A DNA stretch of 38,810 bases from a bacterium (GTDB taxonomy: Bacteria > CG2-30-53-67 > CG2-30-70-394). This document shows, piece after piece, positions 16,576 through 38,253 of the stretch. Under the pieces are notes generated by a model that saw only the letters and a list, made by a program, of their open reading frames with translations, was not told the DNA's origin and did no database searches. Position numbers and translations under genes: made by a program. Each line of letters opens with the position of its first letter. The first letter of the stretch is position 1. Where the stretch lies: the NCBI GenBank assembly GCA_024278555.1, contig JAJRSX010000147.1, forward strand, positions 1 through 38,810. The letters are read 5' to 3'.

Positions 16576-16700
16576 TCGCTGCCTCCGTCCGATGGGCGGA
16601 GGACACGGCAGCCTGGGGTCGCACCCCAGCGCCACCATCCCCCCGGGAGCGCGGACGCCGTGGCCGCGACAGGGCTCGCCCTACTCCCGGGGGGACCTTA
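16576..16700 (+). repeat. Series of stem-loops before the Gx transporter gene
   Basis: Three consecutive stems are visible: GCTGCC...GGCAGC enclosing CCTCCG/CGGAGG (about 16580-16613), CTGGGG-tcgca-CCCCAG (about 16612-16628), and CCCCCCGGGAG (about 16640) pairing with CTCCCGGGGGG (about 16684). The second stem resembles the edge of the TAGGAG-type repeats. This could be a dispersed repeat or a structured leader of the downstream gene. Confidence 0.45.
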
Positions 16701-16756
16701 TTTCGGCAACGGGCGGGAACACGGGTACCGCTTTTCGGCCGTCTCTTGACCCGTTC

Positions 16757-17314
16757 ATGCCGCCGATGGTCGTTGCCCCGCCAGATCCCATCCACGCCAC
16801 CGAACGCCAGGTCCGTCTCGCCTGGTTTGCCGCCCTGGCGATCGCGATCCACGCGGTGGAGGCCCTCATCCCCTCCCCCCTGCCGGGGGTAAAGCTGGGG
16901 CTGGCGAACGCGGTCACCCTGGTGGTCCTCCTGCTGCACGGCCCCCGTGACGCCTTCGTGGTGACGGTGGTGCGCATCCTCATCGGGGCGCTGCTGATCG
17001 GCACCTTCCTCGGCCCCGGCTTCTTCCTGTCGCTCGCCGGGGGGCTCGCGGCGTGGGCGGTGATGGCCGCCGCGCGCCCCCTGTGGCCCGGACTCCTGAG
17101 CCCCCTCGGCCTCTCGGTCCTCGGCGCTGCCGCCCACATCTCGGCCCAGGTGGGGCTGGTCTATGCCGTCCTCCTCCCCAACCCGGGGCTCCTCCACATC
17201 GCGCCGGTGCTCGTCGCCTCGGCGGTGGCCACCGGCATCGCCACCGGGCTGGTCGCCACCCGCCTGGTGGCGATCTTCCAAGAGGTGGCGGCCCCTCCCC
17301 TCTCCACCTCGTAG
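16757..17314 (+). CDS. Gx transporter family membrane protein (heptaprenyl diphosphate synthase component I-like)
   Basis: A 185-residue hydrophobic protein with about five membrane segments and the conserved N-terminal pattern ALIPSPLPGVKLGLANAVTL, which identifies the Gx transporter family (Pfam Hpre_diP_synt_I). Despite the old name, the family looks like the substrate-binding component of small-molecule transporters, and its substrate is not established. The ATG at 16757 is chosen because homologues begin a short distance before the first helix; ATG 16766 is an alternative. Often such genes sit next to a NusG-domain-II protein, but no partner is present here. The gene ends just before two dyad repeats that belong to the PEP-CTERM promoter region. 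Confidence 0.8.
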   Translation: MPPMVVAPPDPIHATERQVRLAWFAALAIAIHAVEALIPSPLPGVKLGLANAVTLVVLLLHGPRDAFVVTVVRILIGALLIGTFLGPGFFLSLAGGLAAWAVMAAARPLWPGLLSPLGLSVLGAAAHISAQVGLVYAVLLPNPGLLHIAPVLVASAVATGIATGLVATRLVAIFQEVAAPPLSTS

Positions 17315-17325
17315 GGCAGAGGAAA

Positions 17326-17380
17326 CGGAAACACGAGTTTCCATTTCCCCCGAAAAAAACGGAAACACGAGTTTCCATTT
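17326..17380. promoter_or_regulatory. Two identical 21-bp direct repeats with dyad symmetry, candidate activator sites
   Basis: The 21-base sequence at 17326-17346 is repeated exactly at 17360-17380 (period 34). Each contains the near-palindrome GGAAACACGAGTTTCC. Their centres lie about 155 and 121 bases upstream of the start predicted for the sigma-54 promoter at 17464, the normal range for enhancer-binding activators. An alternative is that they are hairpins ending the Gx transporter transcript, 12 bases away; each is followed by ATTT. Confidence 0.55.
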
Positions 17381-17463
17381 ATTCTCCTGCGATGCATGCG
17401 TAAATCCAGGTAACGCACTGTAGATAAAGACGCCCGTCGTCTTGTGTGCATCTTTTCCTGACT

Positions 17464-17479
17464 TGGCACGTCGGTTGCT
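17464..17479 (+). promoter_or_regulatory. Sigma-54 (RpoN) promoter of the PEP-CTERM gene
   Basis: TGGCACG (17464-17470), four bases, then TTGCT (17475-17479) is a full match to the -24/-12 consensus, with GG and GC ten bases apart. The predicted start is near 17490, leaving a leader of about 176 bases before the ATG at 17666. An inverted repeat TTGCTAC-gttcg-GTAGCAA (17475-17493) overlaps the -12 element and start site. Confidence 0.8.
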
Positions 17480-17665
17480 ACGTTCGGTAGCAATAGAGGG
17501 CCTCGGGGGGCCGCGCTGCCGGACTTCTGGTGGGGTCGAGCGGGGGGGTCCTGGTGGGTGGCTTCTCTTTTGTTCACACCGTGCCGATAGAGCCGGCGGT
17601 AGGCCGGTCGTGTTTTGGCGACGCCGCGGTTGGTGCGTCGTAGCTCTTACTCGAAGGAGGAACCG

Positions 17666-18499
17666 ATGCGCACCTTCCCGATGTCTCTGGCCGCCCTGGT
17701 CGCGGTTGCCCTCTTCACCGCCCCGGCTGTGGCCGCTCCGGTCCCGTGGGTCGGCTCTGCGGATTATGGCGCCGGAACCTACGGGGACACCGCCGACGGC
17801 GAGGCCGTCGGTCCCTTCGACGCCTATGACGCCGGGCCGGGCGTTGCCCTTACCCTCGGGGCCGGATCTGCTGGGGTGGGCTCGGTCCTCGACGGCTACT
17901 TCCAGAGCTATGTCACCGCCCACACCCGCAACTCGACGACGGTCACCGCCGCGCACCTCAACACTCAGGGTGCGGTCGGCGACGGGAGTGGCTATGAGCT
18001 CACCGTGGCGGCGAACTTCACGGAGGCGGTGACCGCGATCAACGGCGGCCAGACCGACTTTGCGATCACCGGTGGCCACGTCGATCTCTACCTCGATGAC
18101 ACCCCGGACTACAGCTTCCCCGGGGACAGCGGTTTCACCGACAACGGGTCGATCCTCAGCGGCACGATCGTCGGCGGCGGTGGGAACTTCACCACCACCC
18201 CCTTCTTCAGCTTCGGGGGGGCGCTCATCGACATCCAGGTCGACGGCTACGACGCGGACGTCTTCAGCCCCGACACGATCGCCTCCGGTGCCTCGGTCTT
18301 CACCCTCCAGATCACCCCGAACAACGCCCAGTTCCTCTCCACCGTTTCCAGTGTCCTGGGCCATCCCTACGATAGCGGCCAGGACCTCTTGGTCGTCGCC
18401 GACGGCAACCTCGACCTCTACGCCGTGCCCGAGCCCCTCTCCCTGCTGCTTGTGGCGTCGGCCTTGGCGGGAGTGGTGGTGGTCCGCCGCTCCAGGTAG
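17666..18499 (+). CDS. PEP-CTERM sorting domain-containing secreted protein
   Basis: A 277-residue exported protein. The N-terminal signal peptide (MRTFPMSLAALVAVALFTAP, cleaved near AVAA) leads into a Gly/Asp/Thr-rich beta-type body with no Cys. The C-terminus has the complete sorting signal: VPEP at residues 254-257, a hydrophobic helix LSLLLVASALAGVVVV and a basic end RRSR. Exosortase removes this tail while anchoring or releasing the protein at the cell surface, generally together with an exopolysaccharide. The body (VLDGYFQSY, LDLYAVPEP) recalls flocculation-associated PepA-type proteins, but I am not certain. ATG 17666 has AAGGAGG five bases upstream. The gene has a sigma-54 promoter and a strong terminator, so it is a monocistronic, activator-controlled unit. 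No exosortase gene is in the window. Confidence 0.9.
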   Translation: MRTFPMSLAALVAVALFTAPAVAAPVPWVGSADYGAGTYGDTADGEAVGPFDAYDAGPGVALTLGAGSAGVGSVLDGYFQSYVTAHTRNSTTVTAAHLNTQGAVGDGSGYELTVAANFTEAVTAINGGQTDFAITGGHVDLYLDDTPDYSFPGDSGFTDNGSILSGTIVGGGGNFTTTPFFSFGGALIDIQVDGYDADVFSPDTIASGASVFTLQITPNNAQFLSTVSSVLGHPYDSGQDLLVVADGNLDLYAVPEPLSLLLVASALAGVVVVRRSR

Positions 18500-35460: not shown

Positions 35461-37368
35461 TTAGGGTTTCACCACCGCGGCGCTGCCGGCATGGACGAAG
35501 GTGGCGGTCTGGCGGGCGATCGACTCGGCGTCGAGGCCGACCTCCGCGAGGAGGGCCTCGCGCGGGCCGTGGGAGATGAAGCGGTCCGGGAGGCCGAGGC
35601 GCAGCAGCGCGACGTCGGTGCGCTGGGCGTCGGCGAGCACCTCGGCGATCGCCGAGCCGACACCGCCGGCGAGCTGCCCCTCCTCGACAGTGACGAGGCG
35701 GCCGGTGGCGGCCCCGGCGGCGAGGATGGCGTCGGTGTCCAGCGGCTTGGCGAAGCGGAGGTTGACCACCGCCGCGTCGATGCCGTCGAGGGCGAGCAGC
35801 CGGGCGGCGGCCAGCGCCGGGGCGACCATGGTGCCGAGGGCAAGCAGGCACACGTCGGCGCCGTCGCGCAGGGTCTCGGCGCGGCCGATCTCCAGGGGGT
35901 GGGGGGCGCCGTCGAGGGGGACGCCGAGGCCGGCGCCGCGCGGGTAGCGCAGGGCCGCCGGGGTGTCGAGGGCGAGGCAGGTGGCGACCATGTGGCGCAG
36001 CTCCTGCTCGTCCTTCGGCGCCATCACCACGAAGTTGGGGATCGGCCGCAGAAAGGCGAGGTCGAAGACGCCGTGGTGGGTGGGGCCGTCCTTGCCCACC
36101 AGACCGGCGCGGTCGAGGGCGAAGGTGACCGGCAGCCTTTGCAGGGCGACGTCGTGGATGAGCTGGTCGTAGGCGCGCTGGAGGAAGGTGGAGTAGATCG
36201 CCGCTACCGGCCTGAGGCCGTCGGCGGCGAGCCCGGCGGCGAAGGTGGCGGCGTGCTGCTCGGCGATGCCGACATCGAAGAAGCGGTCCGGGAAGCGGCG
36301 GGCGAACTCGGTCAGACCGGTCCCCGAGACCATGGCGGCGGTGATCGCGACGATCCGCTTGTCCTTCTCCGCCAGCTCCACCAGGGTGTCGCCGAAGACC
36401 CGCATGTAGGTGAGTGGCGGCGTGGCGCCGGTGCCGTTGCTGCGCGGCTTGCCGGTGTCGATGTGGTACGGCCCGAGGCCGTGCCACTTGGCCGGGTCCT
36501 TCTCGGCGAAGTGGTACCCCTTGCCCTTCTGGGTCGCACAGTGGACGAGGACCGGCCGCTTGAGCTTGGCGGCGCGCTGGAAGGCCTCGATGAGGCTCTT
36601 GATGTCGTGGCCCTTGATCGGGCCGATGTAGGCGAAGCCGAGCTCCTCGAAGAGCATGCCCGGGAGGATCGCCTGCTTCAGGCCGTCCTCCACCCCCTTG
36701 GCCGCCCGCAGCATCGGTTCGCCCACCCCGGGCAGGCGGTTGAGGAGCCGCTCGACGAAGCCGCGCAGGGCCAGGTAGGTGTCGCCGGCGAGGTGGCGCG
36801 ACAGGTAGGCGGAGAGCGCCCCGACGTTCGGGGCGATGGAGAACTCGTTATCGTTGAGGACGACGATGAGGTCCTTGGCGAGGCCGCCGCCGTGGTTCAT
36901 CGCCTCGAAGGCGAGGCCGGCGGTCATCGCGCCGTCGCCGATCACCGCGATCGTCTTGTGGTGCTCACCCTTGAGGTCGCGCGCCGCCGCCAGCCCGAGG
37001 ACGGCAGAGACCGAGGTGCCGGCGTGGCCGGCGCCGAAGGGGTCGTGAGGCGACTCGTCGCGGCGGGTGAAGCCGGAGATGCCACCCGCCTGGCGCAGGG
37101 TCTCGAAGGCGTCACGGCGGCCGGTGAGGAGCTTGTGGACGTACGCCTGGTGGCTCACGTCCCAGACGATCCGGTCGGTGGGGGAGTCGAAGCAGTAGTG
37201 CAGCGCCAGGGTGAGCTCGACCACCCCGAGGTTGGCGCCTACGTGGCCGCCGTTGACCGAGCACACCTCGATGAGCCGTTCGCGGATCTCCGCGGCGAGG
37301 GCGGTGAGCTCGGTGCACGAGAGGGACTTCAGCTCCGCCGGGGAGTCGATGTGATCGAGGAGAGACAT
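35461..37368 (-). CDS. dxs: 1-deoxy-D-xylulose-5-phosphate synthase
   Basis: A 635-residue thiamine-diphosphate enzyme that joins pyruvate and glyceraldehyde 3-phosphate, the first and controlling step of the MEP isoprenoid pathway. The TPP-binding motif GDGAMTAGLAFEAMNHGG lies near residue 150 and is followed by LNDNEFSIAPNVGALSAYLS. The transketolase-like middle domain has DVGIAEQHAATFAAGLA with the catalytic Glu, and DRAGLVGKDGPTHHGVFD follows. Length is standard. ATG 37368 gives the normal start (MSLLDHIDSP); the frame is open 21 codons further but without homology. It follows the ispA homologue by 66 bases and probably shares its transcript. Confidence 0.96.
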   Translation of the reverse strand: MSLLDHIDSPAELKSLSCTELTALAAEIRERLIEVCSVNGGHVGANLGVVELTLALHYCFDSPTDRIVWDVSHQAYVHKLLTGRRDAFETLRQAGGISGFTRRDESPHDPFGAGHAGTSVSAVLGLAAARDLKGEHHKTIAVIGDGAMTAGLAFEAMNHGGGLAKDLIVVLNDNEFSIAPNVGALSAYLSRHLAGDTYLALRGFVERLLNRLPGVGEPMLRAAKGVEDGLKQAILPGMLFEELGFAYIGPIKGHDIKSLIEAFQRAAKLKRPVLVHCATQKGKGYHFAEKDPAKWHGLGPYHIDTGKPRSNGTGATPPLTYMRVFGDTLVELAEKDKRIVAITAAMVSGTGLTEFARRFPDRFFDVGIAEQHAATFAAGLAADGLRPVAAIYSTFLQRAYDQLIHDVALQRLPVTFALDRAGLVGKDGPTHHGVFDLAFLRPIPNFVVMAPKDEQELRHMVATCLALDTPAALRYPRGAGLGVPLDGAPHPLEIGRAETLRDGADVCLLALGTMVAPALAAARLLALDGIDAAVVNLRFAKPLDTDAILAAGAATGRLVTVEEGQLAGGVGSAIAEVLADAQRTDVALLRLGLPDRFISHGPREALLAEVGLDAESIARQTATFVHAGSAAVVKP

Positions 37369-37434
37369 GAGAAAAGGGCCGCAGGTTCCGGCGGCGGCGC
37401 AGGATACACGCACCGGCGGCTCAGTGCGCACCTG

Positions 37435-38253
37435 TCAGCCAGGTTCCACCAGGTATCGCGGCAACGCACGCAGGGGGTCGGCGGCGGTGTCGAAGGGGGC
37501 GAGGTCGGCGATCGCCCGCTCGATCAGGTCGTCCGCGAGGTCGTGGGCCGCCGAGGCCCCCATGACGAGGGTGTACGACGGCCGTGGTGGGGTACCCGTC
37601 GCTTCGTGCTCGGCGTGCAGGTCGGCGGCGATCGCCGCCGCGAGGCCGGCGTGGTGGCCGTAACGGGTGATCGCCTCCACCGCCGCGTCGTCGCCGCCGG
37701 CGACGAGGGCGCCGATGCGCACCGCCGTGGTCAGCCAGGTGCCCTCGGTGTGGGTGTGGATGAACTCCAGCTCGGGCACGGTCGGGGCCCCGTCGGGGGG
37801 TGCGAGGTGCGCCGCCGCGATCCCCGCTGCCGCGCCGCCGCAGCCGACGCAGCGGGCGAGGTCGTGGAGGGCGGCGAGGTGGGCCTCCGCGTCGCCGGGG
37901 GGGCGGGAGTCGGCGAGGAGCTCAAAGGCGAGGGCGAGGAGGGCATCCTCCGCCAATGCCGCCAGCCGTGCGTCGATCGGTTCGGCCGCCGGAACACGGC
38001 GGTGTGCGGTCCACGCCATCTCCACCGCCGCCGCCGCCCCGAGGCAGCCGGGGCCGTCGCCCCCGGCAGCCTCGGCCGCGGCGACCACGAAAATTGGGTG
38101 GATGCGGTCGCCCGGGGCGAGGAGCTGTCGCTCCATCGCTGCGAACAGGGGCTGCGGGTGGCCGTGGGGGAGGTGGGCGCGTAACGCCTCCTCCACCCAG
38201 TCGCGGCGGCTGTCGAGGTAGGCGGCGAGGGCCACCTGGGGGGCGTCGCTCAT
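37435..38253 (-). CDS. IspA-like polyprenyl synthetase homologue without catalytic Asp-rich motifs
   Basis: A 272-residue protein that aligns along its length with farnesyl diphosphate synthases: IHPIFVVAAAEAAGG (51-65) to their RLRPFLVYATGE region, LAEDALLALAFELLA (100-114) to LAGDALQTLAF, VPELEFIHTHTEGTWLTTAVRIGALVAGG (159-187, shown in parts) to the KTG helix, and RPSYTLVMG (224-232) to KPTYPALLG. Yet every catalytic feature is altered: the KRLRP lysine/arginines read DRIHP, the first DDxx(xx)D is replaced by TAHRRVPAAE (82-91), KTG becomes TEG, and the second DDxxD reads AADLHAE (209-215). It should not bind the Mg-diphosphate substrates normally. It sits exactly where ispA is expected, with ATGA coupling to xseB, so it is expressed and intact. 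A regulatory or structural role is possible. Confidence 0.8.
   Translation of the reverse strand: MSDAPQVALAAYLDSRRDWVEEALRAHLPHGHPQPLFAAMERQLLAPGDRIHPIFVVAAAEAAGGDGPGCLGAAAAVEMAWTAHRRVPAAEPIDARLAALAEDALLALAFELLADSRPPGDAEAHLAALHDLARCVGCGGAAAGIAAAHLAPPDGAPTVPELEFIHTHTEGTWLTTAVRIGALVAGGDDAAVEAITRYGHHAGLAAAIAADLHAEHEATGTPPRPSYTLVMGASAAHDLADDLIERAIADLAPFDTAADPLRALPRYLVEPG

Follow-up and report, generated by a model that had tools for sequence, protein, structure and literature searches.

Tandem dyads at a fixed 34-bp pitch upstream of sigma-54 promoters of PEP-CTERM genes, and a candidate orphan activator

PepA proteins form a surface-protein family with a role in bacterial clumping (flocculation). 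To our knowledge, the activation of exosortase-dependent surface proteins is poorly understood beyond the PrsR system proposed for Proteobacteria. For that system Haft et al. (2006, PMC1569441) described PrsK-PrsR together with PEP-CTERM promoters composed of motif 1 and motif 2, in which an enhancer motif, sometimes repeated, is followed by a spacer and a -24/-12 element, with TTTACA at the end of motif 1. Work on Aquincola tertiaricarbonis showed that pepA needs RpoN1 for its transcription, the start of which has been mapped (PMC9850573); the operator in that species is the enhancer that had already been predicted. DVUA0057 of Desulfovibrio vulgaris, a two-component response regulator predicted to act on PEP-CTERM genes, is a sigma-54 activator (bEBP) that has several of them as targets (PMC3333781, PMC4641369), and DVU2106 carries GAFTDA as a working natural variant of the activator loop (PMC4641369).

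The locus described here resembles the system of Haft et al. in its order of enhancer motif, spacer and -24/-12 element before a PEP-CTERM gene, and in a genome that encodes PrsR, PrsK and an exosortase. It differs in its motif, GGAAAC-N4-GTTTCC in fixed 34-bp pairs, and in the apparent involvement of a second type of dyad and an orphan bEBP. The 350 bp that precede the pepA promoter contain neither TTTACA nor TGTAAA, and a TTTACA-type motif 1, when sought upstream of sigma-54 promoters, was not a shared feature. The gene shares its protein family (NF033554) and kind of promoter with pepA of Aquincola, whereas its operator is a lineage-specific dyad pair. The activator proposed below would, like DVUA0057, serve several PEP-CTERM genes, but it is without a receiver domain.

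The window, the whole 38,810-nucleotide stretch of bacterial DNA that was analyzed (contig C125 of genome G000), carries pepA at 17666..18499 on the plus strand (NCBIfam NF033554, 138.6 bits against a cut-off of 80), and the encoded flocculation-associated protein has a PEP-CTERM tail scoring above the cut-off of TIGR02595 (C125:18425-18496). The upstream gene on the same strand (16592..17314) encodes an Hpre_diP_synt_I / Gx-transporter-like membrane protein (Pfam PF07456, 122.9 bits against a cut-off of 30), and its synteny is kept in the congener G001. The sequence-only reading had claimed a perfect -24/-12 element, TGGCACG-N4-TTGCT, before pepA, and this was found exactly as TGGCACGTCGGTTGCT at 17464-17479, with the -24 GG and -12 GC correctly spaced. 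No other site in the window is free of mismatches; the promoter as a whole, TTGGCACGTCGGTTGCT, occupies 17463..17479 on the plus strand and scored 18.7 out of a maximum of 20.0. Sigma-54 spacing predicts a transcript start near 17490, which would give pepA a long 5' leader (17490..17665, plus strand). The exact repeat copies had been put at 21 bp; they proved slightly longer, at 24 bp, with the claimed 34 bp from start to start. The distal copy AAACGGAAACACGAGTTTCCATTT (17323..17346, no strand assigned) begins 9 bp past the stop codon of the upstream gene, and the identical proximal copy occupies 17357..17380. Each contains the 16-bp dyad GGAAAC-ACGA-GTTTCC, and their centers fall at about -156 and -122 from the predicted start, in agreement with the 120-155 bp given earlier.

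Judged by the window on its own, the dyad departs only slightly from expectation: 12 of 100 shuffles gave at least two matches at up to two mismatches. Across the genome, its recurrence in 34-bp pairs is not a chance effect. At up to one mismatch the genome contains 11 dyads, 10 of which lie in five tandem pairs, every one at exactly 34 bp: one in the window, one on C31, two on C84 and one on C52, the last with GGTAAC half-sites. The eleventh stands singly on C210. A search for the pair pattern itself, allowing up to three mismatches, returned the same five places and nothing with the reversed pattern. The exact tandem pair was present in none of the relatives searched (G001-G007), and single dyads in G002-G007 were near or below control numbers. 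Across 85,000 species genomes the exact pair pattern occurred in five stretches from unrelated records, four of them clostridial, and the dyad GGAAACNNNNGTTTCC was not found printed in the literature searched. One chance dyad match in G001 came from a CRISPR-like array (L073:100-760, G001:C171) with the repeat GTTTCCGCAGCGTTAACGCTGCGGCCCCATTGAAGC.

Four of the five pairs (C125, both on C84, and C52) precede genes with PEP-CTERM tails, which belong to the 18 PEP-CTERM places in the genome; the suggestion that the dyad would recur before such genes was thus borne out. The single C210 dyad precedes an outer-membrane efflux (TolC-type) gene (OEP, PF02321, 148 bits), with a near-perfect sigma-54 promoter 43 bp away (L023:5030-5094). 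Using a matrix built from the known consensus, we found a -24/-12 element downstream of all six places, with scores of 18.7 (C125), 17.4 and 12.9 (C84), 17.2 (C31), 15.4 (C52) and 19.7 (C210). With the background density measured over 737 kb of the same genome, the chance of finding such an element within 450 bp at six of six places is about 1e-10.

The distance from the center of the proximal dyad to the -24 GG was 97 bp at C125 and C31, and 108 and 109 bp at the C84 pairs; in G001 the corresponding values were 98 and 110 bp. At these six loci of two species, 97-98 bp amounts to 9.2-9.3 helical turns and 108-110 bp to 10.3-10.5 turns, so that the proximal dyads lie on one face of the helix in two classes one turn apart. 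The exceptions are the C52 pair, which does not share this phase and has its promoter 437 bp away, and the single C210 dyad at 43 bp. Save at C52, then, the tandem dyads have the position (about 80-200 bp upstream) and helical phase of enhancer sites, the pair in the window combining its 34-bp pitch with a distance of 97 bp from the -24 GG. The machinery that the earlier reading called for is also encoded. Scanning stretches of the genome located rpoN on the minus strand of C48 at about 36387-37823 (TIGR02395, 438.6 against 277.35 bits), and both PrsR (TIGR02915, 580 against 502.6) and PrsK (TIGR02916, 440 against 300) were present, clustered on C106 with an XrtA-type exosortase and EpsI. The recurring pairs, their fixed spacing and phasing, the four PEP-CTERM targets, and the presence of rpoN and prsR/prsK together make the reading as a bEBP enhancer pair with a sigma-54 promoter well supported at the level of sequence.

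One of the C84 pairs (9716/9750) adjoins an orphan bEBP gene (G000:C84:10029-11099) that, in both species, is oriented divergently to the PEP-CTERM gene under dyad control. The 356-residue product is without a receiver, comprises Sigma54_activat and AAA lid domains, and carries the same GAFTDA loop as DVU2106. It is like receiver-less bEBPs such as PspF in its AAA+ domain, its C-terminal helix-turn-helix-like region and the divergence of its gene from a target. Unlike PspF, it scored 212 bits against that family's cut-off of 443.55, and its proposed targets are exported PEP-CTERM proteins. The orthologue in G001 is 71% identical; the six class relatives (G002-G007) contain only general homologues at about 44%, with neither dyad pairs nor a close homologue.

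Comparison with G001 revealed exactly two dyad pairs there, both at orthologous loci. At the counterpart of the C84 9716/9750 pair, which has the same PEP-CTERM neighbor and a near-identical promoter TTGGCACGCGGCCTGCA, the diverged pair beside the orphan bEBP orthologue reads GGAAAGTGGCGTTACC and GGAAAGCGCCGTTACC, 33 bp apart; the counterpart of the C31 pair, on C99, reads GGTAACCGGCGTTACC and GGTAACGGGAGCTACC, also 33 bp apart. One of the two has GGAAAG/GGTAAC half-sites, and the change from G000 to G001 at the two loci is from GGAAAC to GGTAAC/GGAAAG. The bEBPs of the two genomes formed 16 reciprocal pairs, 14 with a readable recognition helix, although not every bEBP was paired. Among them conservation is lowest in the orphan bEBP, whose helix (GTTRQWLTKQIRKY against GKSRQWLSQQLRKY) differs at 5 of 14 residues, the most of any readable pair, the others showing 0-3 changes. 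The PrsR helix GTSRPTLHHLLNKYEI is identical in both genomes. The dyad thus appears to have changed along with the orphan activator helix, and the GTCTCA dyad described below to have stayed constant like the PrsR helix, a correlative pattern drawn from two species. As the C52 pair of G000 already has GGTAAC half-sites, the base change may lie within the tolerance of one protein.

Other PEP-CTERM genes are preceded by a different dyad, GTCTCA-N3-TGAGAC. G000 and G001 each contain 16 copies (reversed controls, none); the dyad is the same in both species, and at most sites it is followed by a sigma-54 promoter 60-240 bp beyond. Eight sites in G000 precede PEP-CTERM genes, and one in G001 lies just past the 3' end of prsR; this operator may belong to PrsR and serve those other PEP-CTERM genes. 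Besides PEP-CTERM genes, its targets as judged by eye include a multi-CxxCH cytochrome-like protein and a TPR-like protein, along with small, conserved proteins 83 residues long. The PEP-CTERM gene on C52 (L022:4752-5244) has both operator classes before one and the same sigma-54 promoter, from which the GGAAAC pair is 437 bp away.

In G001, pepA is syntenic behind the same upstream gene, and the slot equivalent to the GGAAAC pair is filled by one perfect GTCTCAATGTGAGAC of the GTCTCA type. That slot contains no GGWAAC dyad with fewer than three mismatches, and the corresponding slot of the window contains no GTCTCA dyad with fewer than five. As a GTCTCA dyad serves pepA from the same slot in the sister species, the most economical interpretation is a replacement of one operator class by the other, so that the enhancer would have been exchanged and control of pepA seemingly rewired.

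The explanation we favor is that the tandem dyads are upstream activating sites for a bEBP, which would loop to the -24/-12 promoter and turn pepA on. The likeliest protein for this role is the receiver-less orphan bEBP whose gene on C84 lies beside another of the dyad pairs. Its regulon in G000 would then comprise four PEP-CTERM genes, a conserved and apparently non-coding transcript by a fliA-like gene, and perhaps the TolC-type gene; the second operator, possibly that of PrsR, would serve other PEP-CTERM genes and, in the sister species, pepA. Binding, activation and the identity of the activator we infer from sequence, and taken as a whole, from the tandem sites at pepA to the C84 activator, the second operator and the enhancer exchange, we regard this explanation as reasonably probable. 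We are evenly divided over the broader proposal that in this genus two sigma-54 activators, each with an operator of its own, divide the PEP-CTERM surface proteins between them, with the pepA enhancer exchanged and the helix of the orphan activator co-diverging with its operator.

The sequence-only reading had offered the dyad as the PrsR-type operator of this lineage, which would leave the GTCTCA dyads to another activator. PrsR and PrsK are indeed encoded with the exosortase and EpsI, and in Desulfovibrio the promoters of PEP-CTERM genes are bound by a response regulator for which control of these genes had been predicted (PMC3333781). PrsR scored above its cut-off in G001, G002, G003, G005 and G007, yet the last four are without the pair, which is therefore not an operator common to PrsR-bearing genomes. 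Its helix is identical in the two species despite the change in the GGAAAC dyad, and the GTCTCA dyad, unchanged, is the commoner of the two at PEP-CTERM genes and stands beside prsR in G001. The proposal is accordingly not favored, and we hold it to be quite unlikely. Because the pairing of bEBPs between the genomes is incomplete, another bEBP could be the activator: the central domain, at least in part, occurs at 27 places in the genome, and several bEBPs are unpaired or cut by contig ends. For none of them is a neighboring dyad pair known, however, and the readable helices changed at 0-3 positions. This we consider unlikely, though with a real chance of being correct, and the orphan receiver-less bEBP remains favored over PrsR at the dyad pairs.

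Two readings would detach the dyads from the promoter altogether. As terminators of the upstream gene they would account for the position of the first copy so soon after its stop codon, and the second dyad with ATTTATTC does score terminator-like. This role was rejected because pairs also lie between divergent genes, as at C84 9716/9750; moreover, a 34-bp pitch phased to sigma-54 promoters is not expected of terminators, and a different, non-matching dyad fills the slot in G001, so that we find the idea very improbable. The idea that the dyads are palindromes of a mobile or REP-like kind, without a role at the promoter, is scarcely credible. Short palindromes are capable of spreading, and the C31 pair does have a REP-like element beside it, but nearly every site shows exact pairing and phasing, and the dyads are promoter-linked at orthologous loci in the second species.

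With enhancer sites for the orphan bEBP as the preferred reading, a sparsely sampled lineage would combine operators of two classes with a candidate activator of the orphan kind and an orthologous gene whose enhancer was swapped. Two proteins and a handful of short DNA probes would then be enough to test how activators and operators co-evolve and how regulons are rewired.

The promoter of the C31 pair adjoins a fliA-like sigma gene and reads into a GC-rich, conserved, apparently non-coding stretch. This stretch (L020:4990-5194, G000:C31) and its counterpart in the congener (L071:1756-1900, G001:C99) share 24 identical bases, CGGCCGCCTCGTGAGGGTGGGGCC, and a strong predicted stem. A search of the C31 transcript against Rfam gave matches only below the gathering score of each family; the stretch is a candidate small RNA of the same regulon. 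A REP-like inverted element with copies of GGGGTCAGGTCTTGCA (L020:5330-5500, G000:C31) separates the fliA-like gene from the dyad pair, and related copies occur near the end of contig C52.
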